DNA of 33,402 nucleotides, from positions 1 through 33,402 of IMG/VR virus record IMGVR_UViG_3300020172_006002; one strand, written 5' to 3'. The notes beneath the pieces were generated by a model, which searched no databases, was not told where the DNA came from, and saw nothing but the letters and a program-made list of their open reading frames with translations. The translations under genes were made by a program, and so were the position numbers. Positions 10,476 through 27,477 of this stretch are shown in pieces. Every line of letters starts with the position of its first letter. Position 1 is the stretch's first letter. This DNA is from a virus.

Positions 10476-10535
10476 TGAATACTTCTATCGAACGCCAACT
10501 CCAAATCAAATGTATTTTATTGATAGAAGTATTCA
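10476..10535 (+). promoter_or_regulatory. Hairpin abutting the ribosome-binding site of homing endonuclease 2
   Basis: GAATACTTCTATC at 10477-10489 pairs perfectly with GATAGAAGTATTC at 10522-10534. One further pair at the base and two inward pairs (one a G-U) extend the stem. The loop is about 28 bases. The Shine-Dalgarno AAGGAG begins at 10535, the last paired base, so the stem could hinder ribosome loading at the ATG at 10546. It is comparable to the hairpin at 5230 before homing endonuclease 1, but unrelated in sequence. Confidence 0.6.
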
Positions 10536-10545
10536 AGGAGACACA

Positions 10546-12243
10546 ATGGATATAGAAGCACTGCATCGATCCGGATTGACTCAGCGTGAAATGGCTCAAT
10601 CCCTTGGTATTAGTGTGTCGTCGGTCAGACGAAAAATGAAGCAATTAGGACTACATGGGAATAGCAATGGCACGCGTGATTTTCAAATAGCTTCAGGTGC
10701 TTTTGATGATTTGACAAGGGAAGATTCGGCTTACTGGCTCGGTTTTTTGCTTGCCGATGGATGCATAGCTAAATCTGGTGGTACATTCAGAGCGTTGCGA
10801 TTGTCGTTACAAGATAGAGATGAAGAGCACCTCACAAAGTTCGCTGAATTCATTAATTACAAAGGAAAAATCTACCACTCGGTGGCTGATGGTCACAGTC
10901 GTAAGATAATAGTATTTAATGACAAGCCATTGACTTCTCGACTGATTGATTGTGGCTGGTTTGATTTTAAGCGCGGCATTGGCTTCGATATTCTTAGATT
11001 GATACCAGCAGCAAGCTTTCATCACTTTACTCGTGGTTATTTTGATGGTGATGGCTGCATTAGTTCACAGGCTAGGAAGCACAGATTGAAGCGTCGTTGG
11101 TACGCCAATATAGTTTGCAAATATGAGAAAATGCTGGAGTTGATGCGTGACTTGATGATTAGTCACGGTGGCCCACACTCTGAAGTTAGGAAGAGATCGG
11201 CTTGCTATGACTTGCGTTGGTCTAATGTTAATAGGGTGAAGGCGTTTTATGAATTCGCTTACAAGGATGCCACTGTTTATTTGGAACGTAAATTCTTGAA
11301 GTTCCAGCAAGCCGTGCAGACAAACGACTTCTCTTGGCAAAGCATCGCATCGTTTGCTTTGCCAAATGATCCTAATGACCAACTTAAAGAGGCATTTCTT
11401 AAAAACATATTGCAGTCTGGGTGGGCTAATCCGAGATACGATGTAGAAGAAGATTACCAAGCATGTGAGGCAATAAATTTATCGAACTATATGATTCAGA
11501 ATGTTGGTATCAAAACTGGCTTAGCGCCTGGCAACAAGCTGATAGCTAATTATCAGCCGATCATTTATAGAATTAGGCAGAATGGATCGCCATCAATATC
11601 AGAGTTGGTTAAGCACCCTAAGACTGTACAGCGAGCTTTGAAAGCCTTTTTTGTTCCTGATAAGCCATTGACGCCGGCTCGGCTCATCCGTGAATTGAGG
11701 TTTGCTGGATTTACGATGGCCTCTTTGTTGAGTGTGCCGGTCATCATGGCAGCCTTAGAATGGTTTAATCTGAAAGGTGTCTGGTTTGATCCTTGCGCTG
11801 GCTGGGGCAACAGGTTGCTTGCCGCTCACCTGAGAGGATTAGATTATGTTGGAATTGACCCAGGCGTCTCTTTTCCTGGTCTGGTTAGATTAAGAGAACA
11901 TCTTAAACAGCATAATTTTAAATTACACAATGTCAAGTACCAAGAATACGAGTGGGGCCGATCTGATTTTATTTTGACCAGCACGCCGTTTCATAATAAG
12001 GAAAATTATCTTGATAATATTAATTATGGCACATTTTCCAATTGGTGCACCTCATTTTTTCAGCCGCTCGTCGAAAAATGTCTTGCAAATTCGGATAGAG
12101 TCGTCCTTCATTGTGACAACGCGATGACTAGTTTTCTGGAGGATAATTATTCTGTATCTAAATGCCCACTTTTGTCTCCGAATCGCAAAAAGGCGCCGCT
12201 CGAATACTTTGTGGAAGTATTAAAGAAGGGCAGCAGACATTAG
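10546..12243 (+). CDS. LAGLIDADG homing endonuclease fused to a DNA-methyltransferase-like domain
   Basis: The 565-residue reading starts at the ATG behind AAGGAG; an ATG 36 bases earlier falls in the hairpin loop. Residues 7-36 form a helix-turn-helix (LTQREMAQSLGISVSSVRRK). Residues 60-255 form a monomeric LAGLIDADG nuclease whose two motifs are WLGFLLADGC (64-73) and FTRGYFDGDG (161-170), each with the metal-binding acid. Residues 370-565 look like a SAM-dependent amino-methyltransferase: WFDPCAGWGNRLLAAH (motif I region, 413-428), YVGIDP (motif II-like) and ILTSTPFHNKENY (476-488), the last resembling the TSPPY catalytic motif IV with Pro replaced by Thr. The gene lies directly after gene 23, the same place where T4 carries segD. 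The AT-rich composition suggests later insertion. Confidence 0.82.
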   Translation: MDIEALHRSGLTQREMAQSLGISVSSVRRKMKQLGLHGNSNGTRDFQIASGAFDDLTREDSAYWLGFLLADGCIAKSGGTFRALRLSLQDRDEEHLTKFAEFINYKGKIYHSVADGHSRKIIVFNDKPLTSRLIDCGWFDFKRGIGFDILRLIPAASFHHFTRGYFDGDGCISSQARKHRLKRRWYANIVCKYEKMLELMRDLMISHGGPHSEVRKRSACYDLRWSNVNRVKAFYEFAYKDATVYLERKFLKFQQAVQTNDFSWQSIASFALPNDPNDQLKEAFLKNILQSGWANPRYDVEEDYQACEAINLSNYMIQNVGIKTGLAPGNKLIANYQPIIYRIRQNGSPSISELVKHPKTVQRALKAFFVPDKPLTPARLIRELRFAGFTMASLLSVPVIMAALEWFNLKGVWFDPCAGWGNRLLAAHLRGLDYVGIDPGVSFPGLVRLREHLKQHNFKLHNVKYQEYEWGRSDFILTSTPFHNKENYLDNINYGTFSNWCTSFFQPLVEKCLANSDRVVLHCDNAMTSFLEDNYSVSKCPLLSPNRKKAPLEYFVEVLKKGSRH

Positions 12244-13332: not shown

Positions 13333-14169
13333 ATGAATCGCAAGAGACTGGCCGTTAATCTATCTGGCTCATTAAAATTCTGGAGCCGGTCTTTGCAGAC
13401 CATCAGAAAATTGTCAGATACGTATGATATAACTGTTTTCATTCACTGCTGGGAAAACAGTGAACTGTTAAATGAACACAGTTGGAAGTTCTCGCCTTAT
13501 GCCTTTGAGGCTGATGGTTCAGCCGCTAACATCATTAGCCAATATACTCATGTGGCCTGCGCCAAAATAGAAACATTTGCAGAACGACTTGATCTTTTTC
13601 AAGGCATCTTTGCCAAAGTTCCGTATCATATTCGCAACGCTGCGACGGTAGGTCCGATCTCAATGTTTTATAGTATGCATTGTTGCAGTGAACTTATCAA
13701 AGAATACGAAAATACAAATGGCCAATTTGATGCCATAGTACGCTTGCGTTTTGATTGCTTGCTTGGTGATCTTAATTTTTTCGAGAATGCCAACCAGCAA
13801 GTAATCTTGCCGGCTGTCTGTGAAGATATTTGGGAAACTACAGAAGCCGCCGCTTGTGATTGGTTCGCATATGGTCCGTCAAATTTGATGCACCAATACT
13901 TCAGTGTCTTCCAAAATATTGTAGAACTATGTGAATCCGGTTGTATCCTATATGGTGAAGGATTGCTCGGTACTCATTTGTGGCGTAGCAGAGTGCCAGT
14001 CTTAAGGAAATGCGTGCCTCTTGCCATAGCCAATAACCAGCTACCATCAGCTGAAGATGTGAAGTTCTTTAAAGAAGCGATTGGAGAGCACGCCGGACCG
14101 GTGCTAAGAGACGATCCCAATGTGCTATGGGTAGACTGGTACGGTCGCTACCAGTACGGTAAACAATGA
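13333..14169 (+). CDS. Glycosyltransferase-like protein (family shared with the genes at 21706 and 23282)
   Basis: The 278-residue product begins with a Rossmann-like strand, RLAVNLSGSLKFW, then YDITVFIHCWEN. The middle has ISMFYSMHCCSELIK and FDAIVRLRFDCLLGD, the last resembling a nucleotide-sugar-binding acidic strand (R-x-R-x-D). The same layout (LSG start, VxxHxW, S-x-x-Y-S helix, R-x-R-x-D) occurs in the 23282 gene and more weakly in the 21706 gene. I infer a nucleotide-sugar-dependent transferase; the donor and acceptor are unknown. It starts four bases after the methyltransferase remnant, with GGTGA as a weak ribosome-binding site, and heads the sugar block. Confidence 0.68.
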   Translation: MNRKRLAVNLSGSLKFWSRSLQTIRKLSDTYDITVFIHCWENSELLNEHSWKFSPYAFEADGSAANIISQYTHVACAKIETFAERLDLFQGIFAKVPYHIRNAATVGPISMFYSMHCCSELIKEYENTNGQFDAIVRLRFDCLLGDLNFFENANQQVILPAVCEDIWETTEAAACDWFAYGPSNLMHQYFSVFQNIVELCESGCILYGEGLLGTHLWRSRVPVLRKCVPLAIANNQLPSAEDVKFFKEAIGEHAGPVLRDDPNVLWVDWYGRYQYGKQ

Positions 14170-14202: not shown

Positions 14203-14796
14203 ATGAATATTTTCATATTCGATCTTGATGGTGTGCTAATTGATACATGTGAGATGCATTTTAACTTATTAAATCAGGCGTTGGAGATGCTAGGCCACGA
14301 ACCAATTAGCTTGCTGACACACAAGACGATGCTAAATGGATTGCCGACGAAAGAAAAGCTTAGTAAATTGGGATTCGTTGAAGGCGAAATCGTAAAAATT
14401 AACGAATTAAAACAAAAATTGACACATGCTGCAATCGAAGGATTAGAGCTCAATCAGAATAAAAAAGAGCTATTACGATGGCTTCGCAGCCTAGGTAAGA
14501 AGATTGGGCTAGTTACGAATTCTACATCGGCGACAGTTGATCGTATATTGGCTAACAGTGACGTGAAGCATCTTTTTGACGAAATCGTGACTAATTCCGA
14601 CGTTCATAATCCCAAACCTGACCCAGAGGGCTACATTCTGGCCATCGAACGGTTGGCCGGTGATAAACGCAATGTGGTAATTATAGAAGATTCGGATAAC
14701 GGCTACGAAGCAGCAGTGCGAAGTGGTGCCTGGTGTGTTAAAAGGGTCGATGGTCCAGAAGAAGTCACCATCGAGTTATTAAAGGGATTGATATGA
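14203..14796 (+). CDS. HAD-superfamily hydrolase (phosphatase or phosphomutase type)
   Basis: This 197-residue HAD-IA enzyme has all core motifs: FDLDGVLIDT (nucleophile Asp7, acid/base Asp9), LVTNST (Thr105-Ser107), Lys138 in NPKPDPEGY, and IIEDSDNG (Glu162, Asp163) for Mg2+. The helical cap at about residues 15-80 is of the beta-phosphoglucomutase or phosphoglycolate-phosphatase type. AAGGAG precedes the ATG, and its stop overlaps the start of the nucleotidyltransferase (ATGA). HAD/nucleotidyltransferase pairs of this kind are common in capsule and surface-glycan loci, where the HAD enzyme prepares or hydrolyses a sugar phosphate. Sequence alone does not separate mutase from phosphatase. 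Confidence 0.85.
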   Translation: MNIFIFDLDGVLIDTCEMHFNLLNQALEMLGHEPISLLTHKTMLNGLPTKEKLSKLGFVEGEIVKINELKQKLTHAAIEGLELNQNKKELLRWLRSLGKKIGLVTNSTSATVDRILANSDVKHLFDEIVTNSDVHNPKPDPEGYILAIERLAGDKRNVVIIEDSDNGYEAAVRSGAWCVKRVDGPEEVTIELLKGLI

Positions 14797-15509
14797 AACT
14801 TGTAGTTCCAATGGCTGGAGAGGGTAGAAGATTTAAAGAGGCTGGATATGATAAGCCAAAACCTCTTATCAATATCGATGGCAAGCCTATGATTGCGCAT
14901 GTGTTACAGACTTTGCCAGCAAGCGATTCAACAGTATTAGTAACGCGAGTCGATGATGCTGAGCTTTATAGTGAAGACTGGATGCTCATTAAAAATCTGC
15001 GCCCGAACACTAGTGTCTGCAACTTAAAACAATTAACCGACGGTGCTGTGCGTACCGTTTTAGCTGTCAATGATTTCGTGAATCTTGATACTGACGAAGA
15101 ATTAATCATCGCCAATAGCGATCAGCTAATTGAGTACGACCAAGTCTCTTTTGATACACTGAGGCTTGAGGGATATGATGGTATTATATTCACGTTCTGG
15201 GCTAATCACCCGAAATGGAGTTATGTCAGAGAAGAGAATGGCTTAGTCGTGGAAGTAGCTGAAAAACGAGTGATTTCAGAGCGCGCCACGTGTGGTGTGT
15301 ATTATTTCAGAAAATCAAGAGACTACGTTGCTGGTGCATATAAAATGATCAACGAAAATATCCGCACAAATGGGGAATTTTATAATGCCCCAGTTTACAA
15401 TCAGATCGTTCGAGCTGGGCGAGTTGTTTCATTTGATGTGTTGAAAATGGATGGTCTTGGGACACCGGAAGATCTAGAATCTTATCTTAATTCGCGTGGA
15501 AGCACTTGA
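14793..15509 (+). CDS. Sugar-phosphate nucleotidyltransferase
   Basis: This 238-residue NTP_transferase-fold enzyme transfers a nucleotide to a phosphorylated sugar or small molecule. The N-terminal signature is complete: VPMAGEGRRFKEAGYDKPKP (Gly-rich NTP loop plus the PKPLI lysine). IIANSDQLIEYD gives the metal-binding Asp, and the C-terminal elements SERATCGVYYF, NGEFYNAPVYN and MDGLGTPEDLESYL are typical of single-domain members in capsule loci. The length is full. One relative that I recall with this pattern is a cytidylyltransferase of Campylobacter capsule modification, so the nucleotide and substrate remain open. It is translationally coupled to the HAD gene upstream, and convergent with the next gene. 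Confidence 0.85.
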   Translation: MKLVVPMAGEGRRFKEAGYDKPKPLINIDGKPMIAHVLQTLPASDSTVLVTRVDDAELYSEDWMLIKNLRPNTSVCNLKQLTDGAVRTVLAVNDFVNLDTDEELIIANSDQLIEYDQVSFDTLRLEGYDGIIFTFWANHPKWSYVREENGLVVEVAEKRVISERATCGVYYFRKSRDYVAGAYKMINENIRTNGEFYNAPVYNQIVRAGRVVSFDVLKMDGLGTPEDLESYLNSRGST

Positions 15510-15527
15510 AATTATCACCATGCATGC

Positions 15528-16397
15528 CTACACTAATTCGTTTTGGTTTTTAAACAGGTAGCAGCCTTCAAAGGTCCCGCGAATTGCTGGTATCATTGTG
15601 GTGAGGTTGCCAGGGTAGCCGATGAATGTCTTGCATCGTGCCGATAAATGCAGCAATGCTAGGAATCGTGCGATATACTGAAATTTCGTAATCGAATTGC
15701 GTCTAACGAATTCGACATCATTCATTTGGCATAGATTATTATGAAACCCTGCGCCACGCGTAAATGGTAATTCTTCTAACACAAGTGCATATTTGAAACG
15801 CCTAAACTCGTCAGCTAAATCATGGTCATCAGTCTGTACAATGATTCTCGAGCCGAATGACGCTTTTTGGGCCAGCTTTACATAATCTGAAGCCTGCGGC
15901 AATGCAAGCTCCTTTAATTTGTCAGTCCCTCTTGCCCATATAAAAGTCGTGTTTTGTGGATCGACGTCGTTGGTGCTTACGATCCTCAGCAATTCATCGC
16001 GGACTAGCCAGTTAGGCGTGAAAAACTCCGCTAGTGCGTTCAATGCGGCTAGGTTTTTTTCGATCAATGCTCTGTCGAATAATGTCCAGCCGTTAGATAA
16101 CCCGTATGATGTTGGGTAAAGCTCGGATACGACCCTTTTGGCTTGGTCTTGTGTGATGTGCCTGTTCGTATGCTGAAAGAACAAAGGGTGAAGATTGAGA
16201 TCATTAACGTACTCAGCCAATTTCCAGATTATTCGTTGTGGATTGTGTCCAAGTGAGATGATTTTGGCTAAACCGTGCATAGCCACCATCATGTTTGAAC
16301 AGATTCCGTAAATCCTGTGCAGGGTGTATGTATTGGTAGATGGGTCAAAATTGTGTTGATGGACCAAACCAAGATTTATGCGATCTAATTCTATCAT
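15528..16397 (-). CDS. Fucosyltransferase-like (GT23-type) glycosyltransferase
   Basis: This 289-residue protein is the only sugar-block gene on the minus strand. The C-terminal half carries TFIWARGTDKLKE, then IIVQTDDHDLADEFRRF, then FIGYPGNLTTMIPAIRG. This order (R-x-T-D-K, T-D-D, then a Gly/Asn-rich donor loop) follows alpha-1,6-fucosyltransferases and NodZ-like enzymes. The N-terminal half, with HRIYGICSNMM and WTLFDRALIEKNL, is less clear. By family it would transfer fucose or a related 6-deoxy sugar from an NDP donor; the acceptor is unknown. It converges on the nucleotidyltransferase with 18 bases between the stops and diverges from the 16455 gene across a 57-base spacer. Confidence 0.62.
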   Translation of the reverse strand: MIELDRINLGLVHQHNFDPSTNTYTLHRIYGICSNMMVAMHGLAKIISLGHNPQRIIWKLAEYVNDLNLHPLFFQHTNRHITQDQAKRVVSELYPTSYGLSNGWTLFDRALIEKNLAALNALAEFFTPNWLVRDELLRIVSTNDVDPQNTTFIWARGTDKLKELALPQASDYVKLAQKASFGSRIIVQTDDHDLADEFRRFKYALVLEELPFTRGAGFHNNLCQMNDVEFVRRNSITKFQYIARFLALLHLSARCKTFIGYPGNLTTMIPAIRGTFEGCYLFKNQNELV

Positions 16398-16454
16398 TGG
16401 TCACCAATATAAAGCTTGTGATCAACGGTATATTTTACCAGTTTAGGAGAAGCG
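16398..16454. promoter_or_regulatory. Short divergent intergenic region
   Basis: These 57 bases separate divergent genes and must hold the start signals of the minus-strand gene unless it is read from far upstream. Visible are AGGAGA (16445-16450) serving the plus-strand gene and an AT-rich patch, CAATATAAAGC. No clear -35/-10 pair can be assigned on either strand. Confidence 0.3.
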
Positions 16455-16877
16455 ATGGGACATGTGGAAGAAGATGATCGTTCTGTTAAAACGGATATGC
16501 TCTACGGTGTGGCTAAGTATTTCGCTTCGATCATTAATTCTTATAAAGCGGGGAATGGGTCGATGTGGTTTGTCAATGATGAAATCACTATAACAGTTGC
16601 TAGGCAGAATTATTATGATTCAGTCGAATTTAATTGCCGTGATTTCAGGTATTTCATTACGCAATATGACGTCGATGAATACCGATTTACTGTGGTGCGT
16701 AAACCAGTTGTGGAAGTCTTGTCTGAGCTGCTATTCACGGGCGATGATTTACTTAAGCATGATTTATTCTCTAGAAGGTTAAAGAATCGCTTAAAGCATG
16801 CTGCCGAGGTGAATGAGCTTGGATTAGGCAGGCCGACAGACCAATTTTCACCTGTAGGGTCGCTTGAAAATGGATAA
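16455..16877 (+). CDS. Unknown protein, 140 aa
   Basis: I do not recognise this protein. It is soluble and mixed alpha/beta, with a central part rich in aromatics and hydrophobics (MWFVNDEITITVARQNYYDS) that suggests a small beta sheet, and a helical, basic C-terminal half (LFSRRLKNRLKHAAEVNE). AGGAGA precedes the ATG. The 3' end overlaps the start of the following glycosyltransferase by eight bases, so the two are likely co-translated. It has a faint resemblance to the small protein at 21425 (hydrophobic helix, then G-x-M-W-x-V). Confidence 0.6.
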   Translation: MGHVEEDDRSVKTDMLYGVAKYFASIINSYKAGNGSMWFVNDEITITVARQNYYDSVEFNCRDFRYFITQYDVDEYRFTVVRKPVVEVLSELLFTGDDLLKHDLFSRRLKNRLKHAAEVNELGLGRPTDQFSPVGSLENG

Positions 16878-17646
16878 AAAGGTAGCTTTAATAAGCCTGT
16901 TTCGTAATAATAGTGCTGATGTTGGACGCATCGTTTCCGAATATCGTCAGCATGGGTTCACGCCAGATCGGCTGATAAGAATTTGCGTAGAAGGAGACAG
17001 TGAGGACGATACCTTTGCTGCTCTTGAGTCGGCGTCGAAGTCAATCCCACTTGTGCTGCGAAAATTCGACCAAGGCAACCCGCACTACAAAAGCGAGATC
17101 AATCAACATCGGCTAGAATGCCTTACGAGGTGCTGGAATATAGGCCTTGAGTTGTTTTTAGAGTCTGATGCCGAGTTTGGCATGATCATTGATTCTGACA
17201 TTGCGATGCCTGATAATATTATTCCTATATTATTACAAGAGTGTCGCGGGATTATTGCTCCTTTGATGCTATTCGAAGCGTCTATGTTCTTCAGGGACAC
17301 CTGGGGATATAGAGACTTAAATGACAATGACTTTTACAACCATCCTCCTTTCACTGGGAATTTCGATTGGCTTAAACCATTTGAAGTAAGTAGTGTAGGA
17401 TTGCCTTTCTTCCATCGTAACATCATAGAGTCGGGTTTAAGATTTGCCGATGACGAAGTGGTAGGATTTTGCCGCGCTGCAAGAAGGCAAGGACATAGGA
17501 TCTTTGCCACACCTAACGCGAGAGTTTACCACCCAAGAGTAGTGGAGGTTCCTAAAGTTTATGATCGAGAATGGTTCGTCCCTAGTCACATTAGCCATCC
17601 AGGACAGGGTGTACGGATTCGTGCTCAGAAAAGACGCCGTCCCTAA
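16870..17646 (+). CDS. GT2-like glycosyltransferase
   Basis: The 258-residue product has a GT-A arrangement: an N-terminal strand VALISLFRNNSADVGRIV, then LIRICVEGDSEDDT (donor-base Asp), a conserved Arg/Trp-Asn helix (RLECLTRCWNIGLELFL), and a DxD-type metal site in MIIDSDIAMPDN. Downstream GLPFFHRNIIESGLRF and DDEVVGFCRAARRQGHRIFA form the acceptor-side half, with the ED/DE and R-R-Q-G-H-R-I elements seen in GT2 and Anp1-like enzymes. The ATG at 16870 is taken as the start; a TTG two codons earlier has closer spacing to TAGGG. The 3' end overlaps the cupin gene. The sugar and acceptor are unknown. Confidence 0.75.
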   Translation: MDKKVALISLFRNNSADVGRIVSEYRQHGFTPDRLIRICVEGDSEDDTFAALESASKSIPLVLRKFDQGNPHYKSEINQHRLECLTRCWNIGLELFLESDAEFGMIIDSDIAMPDNIIPILLQECRGIIAPLMLFEASMFFRDTWGYRDLNDNDFYNHPPFTGNFDWLKPFEVSSVGLPFFHRNIIESGLRFADDEVVGFCRAARRQGHRIFATPNARVYHPRVVEVPKVYDREWFVPSHISHPGQGVRIRAQKRRRP

Positions 17647-17974
17647 TCAGACAACATTCTACTCCCATCCTGATGATTCGCAACAGGTTGGCCATATAGT
17701 TTATAAGAAGGGCTCGAAGATCCCACGCCACGTCCACAGAGTGGTGAAAAGGCAAGTGGAAAGAACCACCGAAGTGCTGCTGGTCCAGACAGGCACTTGC
17801 AAATGCTACTTCCACGATGATGAGGGAGTGGTAGTGATTACTGTTGAGTTGAGGACCGGTGACGTTCTCTGCATACTTGATGGTGCACATTCATTTGAAT
17901 TTTTGCAGGATACTGTTATGCTAGAGGTGAAGCAGGGGCCGTATCTTGGCAAGGATGAGAAGATCATATTATGA
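17609..17974 (+). CDS. Cupin-fold protein of sugar-biosynthesis clusters
   Basis: This small single-domain cupin, about 121 residues, has the metal-site pattern: PRHVHRVVKRQVERTTEVLLV (cupin motif 1 with two His and a Glu) and LCILDGAHSFEFL (motif 2 with His), ending in MLEVKQGPYLGKDEK. Close relatives that I recall sit in O-antigen and capsule loci beside aminotransferases; it does not look like the FdtA-type 3,4-ketoisomerase, so the reaction is open. The start is uncertain. GTG at 17609, preceded by AGGA, is preferred because homologues begin near VYGFVL. ATG at 17561 would add 16 residues and deepen the overlap with the glycosyltransferase. Its TGA overlaps the aminotransferase ATG. Confidence 0.75.
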   Translation: MYGFVLRKDAVPNQTTFYSHPDDSQQVGHIVYKKGSKIPRHVHRVVKRQVERTTEVLLVQTGTCKCYFHDDEGVVVITVELRTGDVLCILDGAHSFEFLQDTVMLEVKQGPYLGKDEKIIL

Positions 17975-19053
17975 TTCCAGTCTGCGCACCACATGTTGCT
18001 GAATTAGAGTTACAATATCTGGCTGATTGCGCCAAGTCAGGATGGATTGGAGCTGGGCCTTACATCGAACGATTCGAGTCTGAATGGTCCACATATTGCG
18101 GCCGAGCCAATGGGATGGCTGTCTCCAACGGAACTGTGGCTCTTGAATTGGCGATCAAGAGCCTGGACATACCTGTAGGGAAGAAGGTGCTCTTACCGTC
18201 TTTCACGATCATCAGTTGCGCACTCGCTGTGATAAAAAACGGCCTGGTGCCAGTCTTCGTCGATGTGGACCCCAGCACTTTTTGCATCGATCCCGACGAC
18301 GTTGCGAGGGTAATAGATAAAGACACTGCCGCGATGATAGTCGTGCATATGTATGGTCATCCGGCTCCAATGGATCATCTCTCAGCCATAGCCAAAAATC
18401 ATGGGTTATTAGTCATCGAAGACGCTGCGGAGGCACACGGAGCACTGTACAAAGGCCGTCGATGTGGGTCTTTTGGCGATGTCAGTTGCTTCAGTTTTTA
18501 CAGCAACAAAATCATTAGCACCGGCGAAGGTGGTATGGTGCTGGCAGATGATCCCATTATCGCCGACAAAGTCAGAAGCTATCGGAACTTATGCTTTGGA
18601 CTAGGTGCTGACAGGTTTATTCACACCGGCCTTGGTGGCAATTCTCGCATGACAAACATGCAGGCTGCCATTGGTTGCGCACAAGTATCACAGATCGGTG
18701 AATTTCTAAATGCCAAAAAGCGTATGGCTCATGTTTATGACGATGGTTTAGAGGGGCTTTCGGTGATTCGCCCGTCGATTCGAGACGGTTGTGATCCTGT
18801 TTATTGGATGTATGGTATCTTGGCTAGAAATAGCAAAGCATTAGCTGAAGCGTTGCGGAAAGATGGGATAGACACTCGCCCGTTCTTCTATCCTTTACAC
18901 ATGCAACCCGTTCTCGCTCAGTTTACCACAAGACCCCTGCCGGTGTCGGAAAGCATTTCTGAATTCGGATTGTACCTGCCGAGCAGCATAGATATTAGTG
19001 CTGAAGATCAGAAATTTGTTATTGAAGCTATCAGGAGGTTTTATGGTATTTGA
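17971..19053 (+). CDS. DegT/DnrJ/EryC1/StrS-family sugar aminotransferase
   Basis: This is a PLP-dependent enzyme that moves an amino group, usually from glutamate, onto a keto-sugar nucleotide. At 360 residues it is full length. It begins IPVCAPHVAELELQYLADC and GWIGAGPYIERFE, has the cofactor loop SNGTVALELAI, PLP-contacting Asp151 in IEDAAEAHGA, and the Schiff-base Lys180 in FSFYSNKIISTGEGGM. LGGNSRMTNMQAAIGCAQ and TRPFFYPLHMQP are substrate-side family motifs. The general pattern is nearest to the perosamine-synthetase branch (4-amination), although 3-amination cannot be excluded. Start and stop overlap the cupin and methyltransferase genes, so the three are one translational unit. Confidence 0.92.
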   Translation: MIPVCAPHVAELELQYLADCAKSGWIGAGPYIERFESEWSTYCGRANGMAVSNGTVALELAIKSLDIPVGKKVLLPSFTIISCALAVIKNGLVPVFVDVDPSTFCIDPDDVARVIDKDTAAMIVVHMYGHPAPMDHLSAIAKNHGLLVIEDAAEAHGALYKGRRCGSFGDVSCFSFYSNKIISTGEGGMVLADDPIIADKVRSYRNLCFGLGADRFIHTGLGGNSRMTNMQAAIGCAQVSQIGEFLNAKKRMAHVYDDGLEGLSVIRPSIRDGCDPVYWMYGILARNSKALAEALRKDGIDTRPFFYPLHMQPVLAQFTTRPLPVSESISEFGLYLPSSIDISAEDQKFVIEAIRRFYGI

Positions 19054-19804
19054 TGCTGGTTATTCTGCCGTTTACGATCTGCTGTATCAAGACGTTGATT
19101 ATGCTGGTGCCGTTGACCAGGTCGAGTCGCATCTCTCGGACGGCATGGGTCTGACTCTTCTTGACTTAGGATGTGGCACAGGTAGGCATCTCGAATTTTT
19201 TAAACATCGTCACAAGAAGGTAGTCGGCGTTGACATTTCAGCGGGAATGCTTAAGCGCGCCGCGCAGTTAAATCCTGATGTGGAACTGTTGTGCCAAGAT
19301 GCACGTTCGTTTGTGTTGAATGGCCATTTTGACGTTGTCGTTATGATGTCAGCCGTGCTGTGCTATCAAATCACTAACCAAGACGTTATCGATACGTTTC
19401 GCAGGGTTCACGACCATCTTGTGCCAGGTGGGTTGTTCATATTCGACGTCTGGCATGGGCCAACCGTTCTGTACACAAAGCCAGAGCGGCGAGCAAAACG
19501 CATACAAGATAAGGACTTCGACCTGATCAGGGTGGTTGAGCCGAAAGTGCATTTGATGACTAACATGGTCACATGTTCTTATAGCTGGAAGTTTGTAAAG
19601 AAAGACGAGGATGTCGATATCGGTGCGGCTTATGCCGATGGGAGCGAGGTGCACAAGGCACGTTATTTCTTCCCAACCGAAATAGATTTGTTCGCCAGAA
19701 CAACTGGGTTTGATGTTTTAAATGTCGCTAGGGCCGACAACGGCAAGCCGTTTGGCGAAAATGATGATTACTGGCACGCTCGGTATGTGCTGCAACGGGT
19801 ATGA
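19043..19804 (+). CDS. Class I SAM methyltransferase, probably acting on a sugar
   Basis: The 253-residue product starts at the ATG behind AGGAGG at four bases; an in-frame TTG at 18998 has no ribosome-binding site. The Rossmann motifs are clear: LTLLDLGCGTGRHLEFF (motif I), KVVGVDISAGML (motif II acid), LLCQDARSF, FDVVVMMSAVL (motif IV) and HDHLVPGGLFIFDVWHGPTV. The last segment, with FDVW after the PGG turn, is like the N-methyltransferases of amino sugars such as TylM1 and DesVI. Following an aminotransferase directly, N-methylation of an amino sugar is the best inference, with O-methylation as the alternative. It overlaps the aminotransferase by 11 bases. Confidence 0.85.
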   Translation: MVFDAGYSAVYDLLYQDVDYAGAVDQVESHLSDGMGLTLLDLGCGTGRHLEFFKHRHKKVVGVDISAGMLKRAAQLNPDVELLCQDARSFVLNGHFDVVVMMSAVLCYQITNQDVIDTFRRVHDHLVPGGLFIFDVWHGPTVLYTKPERRAKRIQDKDFDLIRVVEPKVHLMTNMVTCSYSWKFVKKDEDVDIGAAYADGSEVHKARYFFPTEIDLFARTTGFDVLNVARADNGKPFGENDDYWHARYVLQRV

Positions 19805-19813
19805 TGGCACGCA

Positions 19814-19838
19814 CAAATATATCGTATGCATATATTTG
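19814..19838 (+). promoter_or_regulatory. AT-rich hairpin overlapping the ribosome-binding site of the 19849 gene
   Basis: CAAATATAT (19814-19822) and ATATATTTG (19830-19838) form a perfect 9-bp stem around a seven-base loop. The Shine-Dalgarno TGGAG (19837-19841) overlaps the 3' arm by two bases. The stem is weak because it is AT-rich, so any translational effect would be temperature- or context-dependent. The palindrome could also be an operator or promoter element. Confidence 0.4.
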
Positions 19839-19848
19839 GAGTATCGGT

Positions 19849-20490
19849 ATGAACGACATCGAGTACCTTGCACGTTTTATTACAGAAGACGTGAACCACA
19901 AGCATATCATCAAGGAATCGAGCTTAAGTAAGCTATATGATTATGCTACCAAATACGACTGCGCTATTATTTCAGCCAACAGGGGTAATCCAGCAGATAG
20001 CACTAACTGTGCCGGAGACAAGCTTCCGAATTTAGATGACGTCTATGGTAGATCTACGGCCGTTCAAGGTCAAAATAGACGTAAGACCAAGAAATATACG
20101 ATCAACCAGACCAACACAGCCCAATTGAAAGGCGAGCTCCAAGCCTTTGGATACGTCGTAGTGCCGGTGCGCGGGGCCTATCTCGAAGAATTGAGCCCGC
20201 AAGTGCACCGCAGAGTGAGTGAGAATTCATTTTTTGTGGTGAACGTTTATGATGATATTCAATTTAACCACAATATGTCTGATCTTGGTATCAAGTACTG
20301 CCAAGATTCTGTCCTTTTGAGCCCTAAGGGTGCGACATCAGCGTATTTGGTTGGTACCAACAATGCTGAATGGCCTGGTTTAGGCGGTGAAGCACGGCTT
20401 GGTCGGCTATTTGCTGGTGAGCCGGAAGGTGCTCAACAGTTTCATACGCGTGTAAATGACAGGCCTTTTTCTTTCAGAGAGCAGAATTAA
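19849..20490 (+). CDS. Conserved phage protein of unknown function
   Basis: I recognise this as a family recurrent in T4-like and other large phages, but I know of no assigned function. Visible family landmarks are AIISANRGNP near the N-terminus, LKGELQAFGYVVVPVRGAYLEE, SENSFFVVNVYDD, GIKYCQDSVLLSPKG, AYLVGTNNAEWPGLG and the C-terminal VNDRPFSF. The fold looks alpha/beta. The 213-residue reading uses the ATG at 19849 behind TGGAG rather than the ATG at 19801, which overlaps the methyltransferase stop and lacks a good site. The region between those two ATGs contains a hairpin. Confidence 0.75.
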   Translation: MNDIEYLARFITEDVNHKHIIKESSLSKLYDYATKYDCAIISANRGNPADSTNCAGDKLPNLDDVYGRSTAVQGQNRRKTKKYTINQTNTAQLKGELQAFGYVVVPVRGAYLEELSPQVHRRVSENSFFVVNVYDDIQFNHNMSDLGIKYCQDSVLLSPKGATSAYLVGTNNAEWPGLGGEARLGRLFAGEPEGAQQFHTRVNDRPFSFREQN

Positions 20491-20806: not shown

Positions 20807-20845
20807 TTTCATTTCTGTGTATTTAAAGTGCAGGAGGTGCGTCCT

Positions 20846-21139
20846 GTGCCCTGTTCAACATTACCAGAAGAGTCTGTGGATTCGGCGGTACTGCCGCCTT
20901 ATAATCTCATCATTTTTAATGATGACCACCACACATTTGAGTTCGTCGTAGCCATTTTAATGAAAGTGTTTCGTAAACCAGTAGAAGAGTCGTTTCGACA
21001 CGCTCTCGAAACCCATGAGACTGGCAGATCAATAGTGTGGTCTGGCTCAAAAGAACTGGGTGAGCTTAAATTGGATCAGCTGACTACTTTTCATGAAGGT
21101 GAAAAAGGGCCGATGTCGGCGGCTTTGGAGCCAGGATGA
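20846..21139 (+). CDS. clpS: ClpS-like N-degron adaptor
   Basis: ClpS delivers N-degron proteins to the ClpAP (or ClpCP) protease. The 97-residue product carries PPYNLIIFNDDHHTFEFVV at 17-35, matching the ClpS substrate pocket, where Asn25 and Asp26 correspond to E. coli Asn34 and Asp35. His57 in ETHETGRSIV corresponds to E. coli His66. The ELGELKLDQL helix matches the ClpA-binding side. The gatekeeper equivalent of Met40 appears to be Phe31. The GTG start at 20846 is chosen because AGGAGG lies eight bases before it; an in-frame GTG at 20828 lies upstream of that site. The end GPMSAALEPG resembles planctomycete ClpS forms. Its stop overlaps the next start (ATGA). Confidence 0.85.
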   Translation: MPCSTLPEESVDSAVLPPYNLIIFNDDHHTFEFVVAILMKVFRKPVEESFRHALETHETGRSIVWSGSKELGELKLDQLTTFHEGEKGPMSAALEPG

Positions 21140-21424: not shown

Positions 21425-21709
21425 ATGGCTGAAATAGATTTAAGAGTGGCTGATTATATCTCTAAGACTCTGACAGAGATCTATGGGACAATGTGGACTG
21501 TTGGTGATAGTGATAAATTTTTCTTTTTAACTTTTCGGGGATGTGAAATCCGGTCAGAGGACGGGCGCGAAGTGATGCTCGCCAATGTTGATGGCAATTA
21601 CTTCCTTAAGACCGCTACCCCTGAAGGCCAATCGTTCATGCCGGTCAATGTGACTGACCATAAAGCTGTTGTTTCGATGATAAAACACTTTGAGATCGGT
21701 GCAAGATGA
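21425..21709 (+). CDS. Unknown protein, 94 aa
   Basis: I do not recognise this protein. The ATG at 21425 is preferred, although a GTG at 21407, overlapping the previous stop, is possible. An N-terminal helix (LRVADYISKTLTEIYG) leads into a beta-rich body (MWTVGDSDKFFFLTFRG, EVMLANVDGNYFLK). It faintly resembles the 16455 product in the helix and the G-x-M-W-x-V step. Its TGA overlaps the ATG of the next glycosyltransferase-like gene, so it belongs to the same transcription unit. Confidence 0.55.
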   Translation: MAEIDLRVADYISKTLTEIYGTMWTVGDSDKFFFLTFRGCEIRSEDGREVMLANVDGNYFLKTATPEGQSFMPVNVTDHKAVVSMIKHFEIGAR

Positions 21710-22575
21710 AAGCTCTGACGTGTGTCATCTGTTCGACTAGAACTTGGCAGGTCACCTGGAATAATTTTCGGACCCACTTGTTGCAAGTGACTGGTTCCGA
21801 TTTATGCCTGTCGATTGGTGTAAGCCAAGGCTACGACTTTAATAATCCACTATTTGACAACGCCAAGTATAAGTTTTTATATCCTGAGCCCGCAGACTAC
21901 GGCCATGCTTTCGATGCCGCTTGTGCAATGTCTGGTGCAACGCCTAATTGGCGGCAACTGCTTAAAATCAAGGACATATGGCTCGGTGGTATAGAAGACC
22001 CAAAATACCAGCAAATAAGCGGGTCAGCAATTCCGATTTTTTATAGATGGTGGCTTTGTAACAACCTTAGGATGCATGGTCTTCTGGACAAGTACGACTG
22101 GTTCATCATGACGCGGAGTGACAATTTCTTCGAGTATGACCATGTCAAGTTATCAGAATTAGACCCTGATTACATTTACATGCCAGAAAGTGAAGATTAC
22201 GGTGGGATTCAGGATCGGCACATAGTAGTTAGCAAGAAGCTCGTGTTAGCGGCACTTGATATCGCAGACCCAATGATACACCACGCTGATGACACTTTTG
22301 ACGGATTGTATCCGTTGCAGCCGATTAACATCGAAAGGTATCAGAAGTACGTATATGACTGTCGCGGGCTTACTGGTAGGATAGTAAGATTTCCACGTAT
22401 GATGTATCTTGTCAAGGGTGCAGCCGATAGCTCAAGATGGTCGCATGGCGTATTTGAGCCTCGTTGCAATAAGATTATCAAATACTATTCAGAGTTTGAG
22501 CTCGTTTGGGCTAACAAGCACAAGACCTTGATGCCAGTAATGTCACGTGTGCCAGTCATGAGGCCAGACATCTGA
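21706..22575 (+). CDS. Glycosyltransferase-like protein
   Basis: The 289-residue product has the general plan of the proteins at 13333 and 23282: an N-terminal strand (ALTCVICSTRTWQV), a middle helix (IPIFYRWWLCNNLRMHGLL) and then KYDWFIMTRSDNFFEYDH, which aligns with the R-x-R-x-D strand of the other two. Downstream, PESEDYGGIQDRHIVVSKK resembles the NEEDFAGINDQFAIG segment of the 23282 product, as expected for a donor or acceptor loop. I infer nucleotide-sugar-dependent glycosyl transfer from this shared plan; neither sugar nor acceptor is known. The start is coupled to the preceding stop (ATGA). Confidence 0.65.
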   Translation: MKALTCVICSTRTWQVTWNNFRTHLLQVTGSDLCLSIGVSQGYDFNNPLFDNAKYKFLYPEPADYGHAFDAACAMSGATPNWRQLLKIKDIWLGGIEDPKYQQISGSAIPIFYRWWLCNNLRMHGLLDKYDWFIMTRSDNFFEYDHVKLSELDPDYIYMPESEDYGGIQDRHIVVSKKLVLAALDIADPMIHHADDTFDGLYPLQPINIERYQKYVYDCRGLTGRIVRFPRMMYLVKGAADSSRWSHGVFEPRCNKIIKYYSEFELVWANKHKTLMPVMSRVPVMRPDI

Positions 22576-22585
22576 GGTAAACAAC

Positions 22586-23248
22586 ATGAAGCTGTTAGTG
22601 ATCGACATTGGTGGTAATAGCGTCAAGCCAGCGATGGTCACGCAATCAAAAGTCGTTAAATGCGATAAACTTCCGAGTGGGAGAGATCTCACACCGCATA
22701 AAGTCGTTCGACATATACGACGCCTGGAATTGAAATTCGATCGTGTCGTCGTAGGGTACCCAGGTGTCATCCATAATGGGAAAATCAAATGTGAGCCCAT
22801 CAATCTTGGCAAAGGTTGGAAGAAATTCGATTTTAAGAAGGCGTTTGATAAGCCAGTCCATCTGATCAACGATGCAGCACTGCAGGCGTACGGTTCTTAC
22901 AGTGGTAGCGGTCGGATGTTGTTCTTAGGGTTAGGATATGGCCTAGGCACCTGCATAGTAGATGATTGGCACATATTACCGCTTGAGGCTGGTCACCTGC
23001 CGTTTAAGAAAAAGACGTTTGAAAGTCTTGTTGGCACAAAAGCCTTGGAGTCGTCTGGGAAGGTGCGCTGGCAGAGCAATGTGTCCGAAGCCATCGAGGC
23101 TTTGCGGTTTTGCCTGCTTGCTGATGAGGTCGTGATCGGTGGCGGTAATTCCAAGAAGCTAGACCCATTTCCTAAGGGCTGCAAGAAAGGTGACAATGAC
23201 AATGCCTTTATCGGCGGGCTAAGGCTCATCCAGAAAGCCCCATCTTAA
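22586..23248 (+). CDS. ROK-family sugar kinase, polyphosphate-glucokinase-like
   Basis: This ASKHA-fold hexose kinase has 220 residues. LVIDIGGNSVKPAMV is the first phosphate loop. VVVGYPGVIHNG and NLGKGWKKFDFKKAF match the polyphosphate/ATP glucokinase (PpgK) branch. Catalytic Asp96 is in LINDAALQAYGSY, and FLGLGYGLGTC is the second phosphate loop, followed by PLEAGHLPF. The ROK zinc-finger Cys motif is absent, as in PpgK. The likely reaction is phosphorylation of glucose or a related sugar with polyphosphate or ATP. It is slightly short at the C-terminal end. GAGGT precedes the ATG. It sits between two glycosyltransferase-like genes, suggesting that it feeds the same sugar pool. Confidence 0.8.
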   Translation: MKLLVIDIGGNSVKPAMVTQSKVVKCDKLPSGRDLTPHKVVRHIRRLELKFDRVVVGYPGVIHNGKIKCEPINLGKGWKKFDFKKAFDKPVHLINDAALQAYGSYSGSGRMLFLGLGYGLGTCIVDDWHILPLEAGHLPFKKKTFESLVGTKALESSGKVRWQSNVSEAIEALRFCLLADEVVIGGGNSKKLDPFPKGCKKGDNDNAFIGGLRLIQKAPS

Positions 23249-23281
23249 AGATATCATAGTTTTGCAACACCGACAGTGAAT

Positions 23282-24223
23282 ATGCCTAACTATATTAATA
23301 AAAATCACTATAAAGTGGCATTGAGGAAGCCTGATGGTACAATGCAGTATCTGCAGCCTAATCAGTCAATGCATTTGCCGGCATTTTATGATCGATATAG
23401 AAAGCTAGGTCTAATAGAATTGCTGCCGGAGACAAAATCGACGCGAAAGCAGATATCACGTACTAAATCGGCTTCTAAAGACGACCAAGCAACAAAATTC
23501 AAAGTTAATGCACTCGATGGTGTTCACGTCAAACCGCAAGCTTCGAAAATAGCCGTGTGCCTGTCAGGTCGTGCGATTGATGCGAATTACTCCATTGCAT
23601 ATATCGACAGATTGAGAAGCTCTCACGATGTGGATGTTTATGCACACTTATGGGGTGAGACTAAAGAAATAGCGCAGAATTCTTGGTCAAAAAGAGCCAA
23701 TGGTAGGCTTCAAACGGAACGTTTAATTAAGGAGTTATCGAGAATAGGGGCGAGATACCAGCAAGACGATTTCGATACTGCCAATTTGCAGTTCATCCAG
23801 CTTCATAGTTATATGAAGAATGCTGGCAGCAACATGTCAAGAGCCGACACCGGTGCTCTTAGCATGTATTATAGCATCTTCAGGGCAAACGAACTTAGGC
23901 GCGCTTCTGGTATAAGTTATGACTATGTCATCAGGATGAGATATGACAGTGAGCCGAAAAGTGATTTGGACTTGTCGATCTTGGATCCAGGATCAATTAA
24001 CATACCAAATGAAGAGGATTTCGCTGGTATAAATGACCAATTCGCGATTGGGCCACCACATCTGATGGATGTGTATTGTGGCGTCTATAATAATGTGGCG
24101 TGGTTATCCGCGAAATGCACGCACCATCCGGAACTCTTATTGAAGTGTCAGCTTGAAGCATACAATATGCCGTTGCGCAGAATCAGCTACAGGGTATTAA
24201 TTGGTAGGAATAGAGGTTCATGA
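23282..24223 (+). CDS. Glycosyltransferase-like protein with an N-terminal extra domain
   Basis: The 313-residue product has a small N-terminal module (about residues 1-55, NYINKNHYKVALRKPDGT and FYDRYRKLGLIELL) that looks like a compact beta/helical domain, followed by a basic linker. From about residue 95 the glycosyltransferase-like body starts with KIAVCLSGRAID and DVDVYAHLWGETK, continues with LSMYYSIFRANEL and YDYVIRMRYDSEP, and ends with INIPNEEDFAGINDQFAIG. These landmarks match the 13333 product closely. The ATG at 23282 is used; a GTG two codons earlier is possible, and neither has a clear ribosome-binding site. It is the last plus-strand gene of the sugar block. Confidence 0.68.
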   Translation: MPNYINKNHYKVALRKPDGTMQYLQPNQSMHLPAFYDRYRKLGLIELLPETKSTRKQISRTKSASKDDQATKFKVNALDGVHVKPQASKIAVCLSGRAIDANYSIAYIDRLRSSHDVDVYAHLWGETKEIAQNSWSKRANGRLQTERLIKELSRIGARYQQDDFDTANLQFIQLHSYMKNAGSNMSRADTGALSMYYSIFRANELRRASGISYDYVIRMRYDSEPKSDLDLSILDPGSINIPNEEDFAGINDQFAIGPPHLMDVYCGVYNNVAWLSAKCTHHPELLLKCQLEAYNMPLRRISYRVLIGRNRGS

Positions 24224-25795: not shown

Positions 25796-25990
25796 ATGGA
25801 ACAGCCACAACCAAAAGATGCTCGAGATTACCGACCACAGGGGCCTGCGTTCGAGGTGGACAGTCGGATAATCTTGAGAATTGATGTCGATCTCGCCGTG
25901 GCACTCGGCAAGTTGATTTTGGCGACTGATTCAAAGAACCCCGCAATCTTGGCATTAGGCCATCAGCTCCGGAGTTTCGAGCAAGCCTAA
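25796..25990 (+). CDS. Small unknown protein, 64 aa
   Basis: I do not recognise this protein. From an ATG preceded by GAGGG at seven bases it reads MEQPQPKDARDYRPQGPAFE, then a strand-helix unit (RIILRIDVDLAVALGKLILA) and a short helix (NPAILALGHQLRSFEQA). An in-frame ATG at 25748 would add 16 polar residues but has no ribosome-binding site. It is divergent from phoH, and its last four bases overlap the 3' end of the serine protease gene on the other strand. The frame is open further upstream, but that part lies antisense to phoH and is not believed. Confidence 0.55.
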   Translation: MEQPQPKDARDYRPQGPAFEVDSRIILRIDVDLAVALGKLILATDSKNPAILALGHQLRSFEQA

Positions 25991-27477
25991 CTGTAGAGTA
26001 GGTTTTCTATCTTACACGACCCGAGCTTGCCAGTCTGGCAGAGGCTCTTGCCGCCGCCTTCCTCGTCTAGCTTACCAACTCTGATGAGTTTGGGTTCACC
26101 TTCGACGATGCTTGCTGGCACGCACATGACAGTAGACCAGACCCCCTCGTTAAGGTACTGTGCACAAAGCAAATTACCTTCCTTATTGATTCGTAGGCTT
26201 ACCTTCGGCTCGCCATTTGAGGGCATTGTGTATTGCATCTTGTTAACTGTGGCGCAAATCGTCCCGTTTGCTTGCAGATTCAGCTTTATAAAACCATTTG
26301 ACCAGTGTAGAGCGATACCTGGTCCATAAACCTCGGATTCGTCGCTGCAGCGTTCAACGCTAAAGCGCGCCAAGTCGAATGGTGTAGAGATTTCCTTTTC
26401 TTTATAACAGGCTTGATCAGTGCACGCGTTGATTTCGAGGTGACTGTCAAACAGTTCTATCTCAGCCCCATTGTCAATTGTCTTCCAGCCTTCTGAGTAC
26501 AATGTCGTAGGCTTTTCGGCCAAATCCGGCCAGTCTTCAAGATTTAGGCTTACTGTGCTCTTCACTGCCGAACTGTTGTAGATCTCCAGTCCATAATGAG
26601 ATCTGACCTTGCTGATCGGAGTCGCTAGCGTCACTTTGCCAGACCCAGCAAACAACAGGCCTACTGCGTTCATGTTCATGTCCATGATCACTGAGCCACT
26701 ATCACCGCCAGCACTCATGTTTGTGCAAACAATGCAATCGGTGAATGTGGCAGGACCAAAGCCATATCCGATTGTGAATGTCGCATTGGTCGCTATGATC
26801 CTACCGTTGGTGTATCCGGTCGTTCTGCCTACCTTTTGGACTGGCGTCTGGATGGTAGGGTCCGCCCAGCCAGAGATGGCGCGATTGAGGGCTGGATAAA
26901 AGACGTTGATTCCGGAACCATTCTTTAGAGAATCGCTCACTTTCGCGATTGCGCTGTCGTGTAGGTTACCACTAGCTTCGATTCGCACAAAGCTTTTGAG
27001 GTTGGCTATTGCCGATAAGTTTCCATTAGCATCCATTGGACCTGGTTGGACGATCTCATCTCCGATGGCTGCGGCGTTTTCATTTGCTATCACGTGGTTG
27101 TTGCTGAGGATAACCAGGTCGTGATCTCGATCGATGAAAAATCCGCCAAGAGTGCCAGCGGTTATGCCACGGTGGCCAATGCTGGTCCCTGGAAGAAGTG
27201 GCCGGCACTTTGCACGAAGACTTTGTGGAATGATATGTCCTACTTCGACTACATCAGTCGTGACGCCATCGACTTTTGTGGGGATAAACTCGAGGTCACT
27301 TTGTTTGGTGACTTCGTCTGCTGCATATTTCTTCTGCACGAAGACTAACACTGCAGGCTCAGGTGTCGGTCGACCATTGACATATTTTAGCCCGACGCCT
27401 GTGCCGATAATATTGTTAGTCATCGGGATTTGGTCATTAAGCTGTTGCTGTGCACATTGTGCTCTGATAAAATCCAT
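25987..27477 (-). CDS. Trypsin-like serine protease with a C-terminal accessory domain
   Basis: The 496-residue product has a chymotrypsin-fold catalytic domain at about 20-300. The triad is visible: His128 in VILSNNHVIAN, Asp174 in NLHDSAIAKV and Ser260 in SAGGDSGSVI. VGRTTGYTNGRI is also typical of bacterial trypsin-like S1 proteases. Residues 320-496 form a separate beta-rich domain with several Cys (ACTDQACYKE, ERCSDES, KSLCQTGKLGSC), perhaps a jelly-roll or lectin-like binding module. No classical signal peptide is evident. GGAG lies seven bases before the ATG. It is divergent from the fibre gene block. It might act on host proteins after release or in virion maturation, but the substrate is unknown. 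Confidence 0.85.
   Translation of the reverse strand: MDFIRAQCAQQQLNDQIPMTNNIIGTGVGLKYVNGRPTPEPAVLVFVQKKYAADEVTKQSDLEFIPTKVDGVTTDVVEVGHIIPQSLRAKCRPLLPGTSIGHRGITAGTLGGFFIDRDHDLVILSNNHVIANENAAAIGDEIVQPGPMDANGNLSAIANLKSFVRIEASGNLHDSAIAKVSDSLKNGSGINVFYPALNRAISGWADPTIQTPVQKVGRTTGYTNGRIIATNATFTIGYGFGPATFTDCIVCTNMSAGGDSGSVIMDMNMNAVGLLFAGSGKVTLATPISKVRSHYGLEIYNSSAVKSTVSLNLEDWPDLAEKPTTLYSEGWKTIDNGAEIELFDSHLEINACTDQACYKEKEISTPFDLARFSVERCSDESEVYGPGIALHWSNGFIKLNLQANGTICATVNKMQYTMPSNGEPKVSLRINKEGNLLCAQYLNEGVWSTVMCVPASIVEGEPKLIRVGKLDEEGGGKSLCQTGKLGSCKIENLLYS

Follow-up and report, generated by a model that had tools for sequence, protein, structure and literature searches.

A stretch of viral DNA, the IMG/VR virus record IMGVR_UViG_3300020172_006002 (the window; the whole record, 33,402 bases), carries four genes at positions 16864-19804 that form the functional core of a sugar cassette: a glycosyltransferase (GT), a cupin, a DegT-type aminotransferase, and a methyltransferase (MT). 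We suggest, with a probability of roughly 0.55, that this core is a portable operon that makes and attaches an N-methylated amino-6-deoxy sugar built from GDP-mannose. The suggestion draws on the families to which the proteins belong, on a gene order that recurs in other phages and in cells, on the phylogeny of the aminotransferase, and on the presence of Gmd (GDP-mannose 4,6-dehydratase) beside related cassettes.

The phage is T4-like. The window encodes a gp20 portal protein (PF07230, E 1e-59) and a gp23 capsid protein (PF07068, E 1.1e-80), together with a head maturation protease and tail-fibre-like genes, one of which has a collagen-like stretch. The record is classed as linear, a class that is often a fragment. 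Proteins with 72-87% identity to its capsid protein are encoded on 80 other IMG/VR contigs, of which the four largest measure 408, 395, 371, and 341 kb. Because the relatives' capsid genes lie on contigs of up to 408 kb, the window is probably a fragment, about one-tenth of a large phage genome, and therefore a gene not found in it cannot be taken to be lacking in the phage.

Organization of the cassette

The four genes of the core are as follows.

16864-17646, plus strand: GT-A-type glycosyltransferase; weak family match alone, orthologue matching PF03452
17561-17974, plus strand: WbuC-like cupin; TIGR04366, 41.9 bits against a cut-off of 42
17971-19053, plus strand: DegT/DnrJ/EryC1 sugar aminotransferase; PF01041, E 4e-104
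18998-19804 (open reading frame; likely start 19043), plus strand: class I S-adenosylmethionine (SAM) methyltransferase; PF13649, E 5e-20

The true start of the cupin is possibly downstream of 17561. For the MT, the most likely start is the ATG at 19043, which has AGGAGG upstream at 19033-19038 and gives an overlap of 11 bp with the DegT gene. The first-pass annotation had grouped these genes with a HAD enzyme and a nucleotidyltransferase further upstream, mostly with overlapping ends. Every gene that it listed is an open frame at its coordinates and has a family match, and the overlaps are there: 4 bp between the HAD and nucleotidyltransferase genes, 14 bp between an open reading frame (ORF) at 16455 and the GT gene, 4 bp between cupin and DegT genes, and 4 bp between the MT gene and the gene that follows it. 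Not included in that grouping were a minus-strand ORF (15528-16397) and the ORF at 16455-16877, which interrupt the cluster.

Related cassettes in phages and the Gmd partner

DegT and the major capsid protein (MCP) led to the phage relatives of the cassette; scanning IMG/VR with the window MT alone gave no relatives. In locus L234 (MCP 83% identical), all four genes occur in the window order and relative strand, near a gene that by eye looks like a tail fibre and in which a Pfam scan found nothing above cut-off. In L026 (MCP 85% identical), GT, cupin, and DegT follow the window order and the MT gene is convergent beside DegT; here Gmd begins 4.3 kb from the DegT gene (PF16363, E 1.7e-122). More distant T4-like contigs (L005, L006, and L010) have the order DegT-MT-cupin-Gmd, and the Gmd in cassettes of this type matches TIGR01472 (E 2.4e-116). 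The 595-kb phage LR756511 (L011) has the order cupin-acetyltransferase-DegT-Gmd; the acetyltransferase, a NeuD/VioB-like hexapeptide enzyme, lies at L011:14483-15001 in the MT slot between cupin and DegT.

Gmd is the only 4,6-dehydratase recognized in these related loci, in one case above the TIGR01472 cut-off (528 versus 415 bits). It lies beside the sister cassettes L026, L006, and L011 and beside the cellular loci L121, L190, and L215. With Gmd as the dehydratase partner in related cassettes, the chemistry points to GDP-4-keto-6-deoxymannose and not to dTDP-mycaminose. The dTDP route, as in the mycaminose-type antibiotic pathways of the earlier comparison, was dropped on this ground; a dTDP-glucose 4,6-dehydratase was recognized neither in the window, a fragment, nor in the sister cassettes. 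Likewise, the apparent lack of a 4,6-dehydratase had been taken to imply that the phage may tap a host intermediate. This does not follow, since at 33 kb the record is a fragment, and related cassettes have Gmd as a neighbor.

Cupin-DegT-MT is a recurrent operon in bacteria

Cellular relatives were sought with a DegT-profile scan of 84,980 genomes. The closest DegT relatives include an ordered cupin-DegT-MT triplet in Hyphomonadaceae (DegT 48% identical), Bauldia, and Gemmatimonadetes. The triplet is also found in a Chloroflexota metagenome-assembled genome (with one gene intervening) and in Gastranaerophilales (with Gmd adjacent), and an archaeal contig has Gmd-cupin-DegT. To avoid seeding with DegT, a second search was seeded with the cupin only and covered about 980 genomes from one class and three phyla, of which 2-5% carry the cupin; 31 neighborhoods were taken. 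DegT is the next recognized downstream gene on the same strand in 24 of the 31, and an MT gene comes after DegT in 12 (directly in 11). Hence, cupin-DegT-MT recurs as an operon in several bacterial phyla. The conserved adjacency of DegT and MT in phages and cells also supports the part of the earlier proposal that stands, an amino-sugar route ending in methylation.

The aminotransferase and its phylogeny

Judging from its sequence, the product of 17971-19053 is a DegT/DnrJ/EryC1 sugar aminotransferase, in which Lys180, the lysine that binds pyridoxal phosphate (PLP), and the Glu-Gly-Gly segment are invariant. Its closest match in the PDB is the Caulobacter GDP-perosamine synthase 3bn1 (E 9e-71), followed by sugar 3-aminotransferases, among them QdtB, with scores some 50 bits lower. 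It has been noted in a review that perosamine and mycosamine synthases are indistinguishable by sequence (PMC8944477).

In a careful tree of 52 rows, the DegTs of the window, L026, and L234 group together (support 100/96) within a clade in which all members are linked to a cupin (support 100/98). The Caulobacter GDP-perosamine synthase is found in a different, cupin-free clade, and the window DegT thus does not cluster with the characterized Per. In a larger tree of 120 rows, the cupin label requires seven changes versus a shuffled mean of 33, with none of 500 shuffles as low; part of the rows had been picked for the cupin, so this clustering is partly by design. Among 80 loci seeded with DegT, all nine with a cupin fall within one 42-row branch. 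The DegTs of L005/L006 and of LR756511 are placed elsewhere in the 120-row tree, and therefore the pairing of cupin and DegT arose more than once.

The resemblance to 3bn1 bears on a plainer outcome, in which DegT makes GDP-perosamine by amination at C4, the product is N-methylated, and the cupin is an accessory (binding, quality control, or other tailoring) and not an isomerase. This is a real possibility, if a less than even one. That an acetyltransferase replaces MT in LR756511, as in perosamine N-acylation, is consistent with it. However, Gmd+DegT loci of the Caulobacter type (L133) have no cupin and belong to the other clade, which suggests that the cupin marks something different.

The cupin as a candidate isomerase

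Features of the cupin bear on the same choice. In an alignment of 13 relatives, Gln42, His57, His59, His110, and a K-x-GP motif are invariant and Glu71 is nearly so. The His57/His59/Glu71/His110 (3His-Glu) set suggests a metal site. The window cupin scores just short of the WbuC cut-off given above; elsewhere, TIGR04366 scores are 45.0 bits for the L006 cupin and 28-32 bits for those of L110, the Hyphomonadaceae operon L105, and L234. No match to the ketoisomerase family PF05523 was found in the window cupin up to E 0.1. A cupin that is nearer to WbuC than to PF05523 agrees with the accessory role, as does the likely metal; for the solved FdtA ketoisomerase (2pa7), by comparison, no metal is listed (PMC3765361). 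No reaction for WbuC itself was found in the literature searched.

An AlphaFold2 (AF2) model of the cupin (pLDDT 87.6) has as its top fold matches, which are weak, the 3,4-ketoisomerases FdtA, FdtD, and QdtA (Foldseek E 0.018; VIA Z 6.9). These matches tie with RmlC epimerases and dioxygenases, and the fold similarity is therefore only suggestive. A PDB profile search with the cupin and a tblastn search of the cupin against named phages gave no matches, and a BFVD fold search returned nothing useful. We regard the cupin as a candidate sugar-nucleotide isomerase. More specifically, it is a candidate for the 3,4-ketoisomerization of GDP-4-keto-6-deoxymannose, a reaction for which no enzyme has been identified (PMC8944477).

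If the cupin were that ketoisomerase, a mycaminose-like route on GDP-6-deoxymannose would lead to N-methylated mycosamine in phages and cells. The order cupin-DegT-MT parallels ketoisomerase, aminotransferase, and N-methyltransferase; the fold matches and the invariant HxH pair point the same way, as do the repeated joining of cupin to DegT (the seven label changes above) and the separate clade of cupin-free Gmd+DegT loci that holds the known perosamine synthase. We consider this specific assignment unlikely, given the missing PF05523 match, the weak and tied fold scores, and the likely metal site. Moreover, spontaneous isomerization may suffice in polyene producers (PMC8944477).

Methylation and transfer

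The broader suggestion of an N-methylated amino sugar also involves the last and first genes of the core. The MT is a probable amino-sugar N-methyltransferase based on its relatives. In a profile search of the PDB, the best matches of characterized reaction are DesVI (E 5e-36), TylM1 (4e-31), and CalS10 (1e-27), and a single-sequence search likewise gives these amino-sugar N-methyltransferases as the best characterized relatives; the relationship to the TylM1/DesVI enzymes thus holds both singly and as a profile. Since the name of a class I methyltransferase family leaves the acceptor undefined, the MT might instead be an O-methyltransferase or act on another sugar, yielding an O-methylated amino sugar. 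With amine methyltransferases as its best characterized matches, and with its gene adjoining DegT in phages and cells, we find this decidedly unlikely.

The window GT shares 37-38% identity with the GTs of L026 and L234, and a DSD motif (residues 110-112 in the window GT) is invariant. The L026 and L234 GTs match PF03452 (Anp1) with E 1.3e-6 and 1.1e-9, respectively; against the cut-off of 28.8 bits, L234 scores 38.6, L026 28.5, and the window GT 10.9. PF03452 (Anp1/GT62) is a family of GDP-mannose transferases, and the best reading of the cassette GT is an Anp1-like glycosyltransferase of the GDP-mannose type.

A possible acceptor is encoded further downstream.

27567-32539: virion-like large proteins with proline repeats; collagen-like stretch at about residues 155-186 of the second protein

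These proteins are candidate glycosylation acceptors.

Proposed pathway

In the pathway that we propose for the N-methylated amino-6-deoxy sugar, Gmd, encoded elsewhere in the phage or by the host, would convert GDP-mannose to GDP-4-keto-6-deoxymannose. DegT with PLP would then transaminate the keto sugar at C4 to give GDP-perosamine. Alternatively, the cupin might first shift the keto group, with amination by DegT at C3 resulting in a GDP-mycosamine-type sugar. The MT would use SAM to methylate the amine so formed, and the Anp1-like GT would move the sugar onto a host glycan or a tail-fibre protein of the virion. The cassette thus predicts an N-methylated amino sugar on the phage or host surface. 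In this scheme, family membership, gene order, the Gmd of sister cassettes, and the phylogeny are observed; the nucleotide, the position of the amine, N- over O-methylation, the reaction of the cupin, and the acceptor are inferred.

Several observations weigh against this proposal. Neither Gmd nor any other 4,6-dehydratase was recognized in the 33-kb window, a fragment, and of the 31 cupin-seeded loci, only six have a strong Gmd within 8 kb. In several jumbo relatives, Gmd occurs without cupin/DegT. DegT family membership leaves the substrate unfixed, and the family-level matches of the MT do not separate N- from O-methylation. The dehydratase result would also fit genes that are host-derived passengers with no working pathway in the phage. 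We judge this very improbable: the frames are intact, with coupled starts and stops and a Shine-Dalgarno site, and all four genes persist in three divergent phages. The DegTs of these phages make up a single clade yet share only about 50% identity, which argues for long retention.

Neighboring genes

The genes around the core are as follows.

14203-14796, plus strand: HAD phosphatase, beta-phosphoglucomutase-like subfamily; PF13419, E 6.6e-34
14793-15509, plus strand: sugar-phosphate nucleotidyltransferase-like; phrog_3980, E 2.1e-51
15528-16397, minus strand: 289-aa orphan ORF; no family match
16455-16877, plus strand: small 140-aa ORF, overlapping the GT start
19801-20490, plus strand: predicted SAM lyase; PF23780, E 4.8e-9, above cut-off

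The HAD and nucleotidyltransferase had been counted as members of the same cluster. Their homologues are fused into one ORF in L006 (L006:3331-4695), apart from its sugar cassette, and in L026 and L234 neither gene was observed next to the four core genes. The idea that they act in the pathway of the cassette was therefore dropped. They look like a separate sugar-activation module. The nucleotidyltransferase has relatives in 18 Synechococcus phage records, with 32-45% identity to the cyanophage proteins.

The minus-strand ORF has no match in Pfam, PHROGs, NCBIfam, the PDB, phages, or IMG/VR, and its single-sequence AF2 model (pLDDT 36.6) is unusable. Its R-G-T-D-K and Q-T-D-D stretches recall GDP-fucose-type transferases by eye only, a likeness backed by no tool. 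At the other end, the predicted SAM lyase gene is the one that overlaps the MT gene: the MT uses SAM and its neighbor would break SAM down. Relatives of the lyase at 40% identity occur in L029/L030.

Three members of phrog_13607 (13333-14169, 21706-22575, and 23276-24223) flank the cassette; two have weak DUF7796 matches, and they are possibly glycosyltransferase-like. Between the last two lies a small ROK-family kinase (22586-23248), which might be a sugar kinase of the phage; its best match, the polyphosphate-glucose phosphotransferase NF045942, falls below cut-off (E 1.7e-17). The window also encodes a phage ClpS, the Clp protease adaptor (20828-21139; PF02617, E 5e-19), and, on the minus strand at 25987-27477, a trypsin-like protease related to NARROW LEAF 1 (PF25608 and PF00089, just under cut-offs), which a protein at L236:7192-8196 resembles by eye. 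Within the capsid gene block, two endonuclease-like genes (5269-6801 and 10510-12243) have added C-terminal domains, one being HNH-like with a Mom-like domain (phrog_1384) and the other LAGLIDADG-like with a weak DNA-methylase-like end.

Comparison with known systems

Single sugar genes are known from phages. In the present case, divergent large phages keep a nearly complete sugar route together with its own transferase, and the three-gene operon is found again in bacteria of different phyla. The GT-cupin-DegT-MT cassette, its link to Gmd, and the cupin-marked DegT clade are undescribed in the open-access literature searched, itself incomplete. Gmd is an over-represented viral metabolic gene and viral nucleotide-sugar genes are well known (PMC10980836). 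The nucleotide-sugar and polysaccharide genes of cyanophages and groundwater viruses share Gmd, nucleotidyltransferases, and glycosyltransferases with the present loci, but the sources searched describe no conserved cupin-DegT-MT-GT cassette there that ends in methylation. WbuC cupins of O-antigen clusters are related to the cassette cupins by borderline to above-cut-off TIGR04366 matches; the cassette cupin differs in lying consistently beside DegT.

The GDP-perosamine pathway (Gmd and Per/RfbE in Caulobacter, Brucella, and Vibrio O1) is similar with respect to the closest PDB match of DegT and the Gmd in sister cassettes, whereas the cassette has an added cupin and MT and its DegT belongs to a separate, cupin-linked clade. 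GDP-mycosamine formation in polyene macrolides (AmphDIII/AmphDII) shares the GDP-mannose origin and a DegT aminotransferase. However, no ketoisomerase gene is known there, nor any 3,4-ketoisomerase for GDP-4-keto-6-deoxymannose (PMC8944477), while the phage cassette has a cupin plus an MT. The dTDP-mycaminose/desosamine routes (ketoisomerase, TylB/DesV, and TylM1/DesVI) are alike in the logical order of cupin, DegT, and N-methyltransferase-like gene and in the relationship of the MT to TylM1/DesVI; they differ in that the sister dehydratase is Gmd and not a dTDP-glucose 4,6-dehydratase, and in that the cupin has no PF05523 match. If the cupin is nevertheless a ketoisomerase, the cassette would represent a nonantibiotic parallel to the mycaminose route that starts from GDP-mannose.

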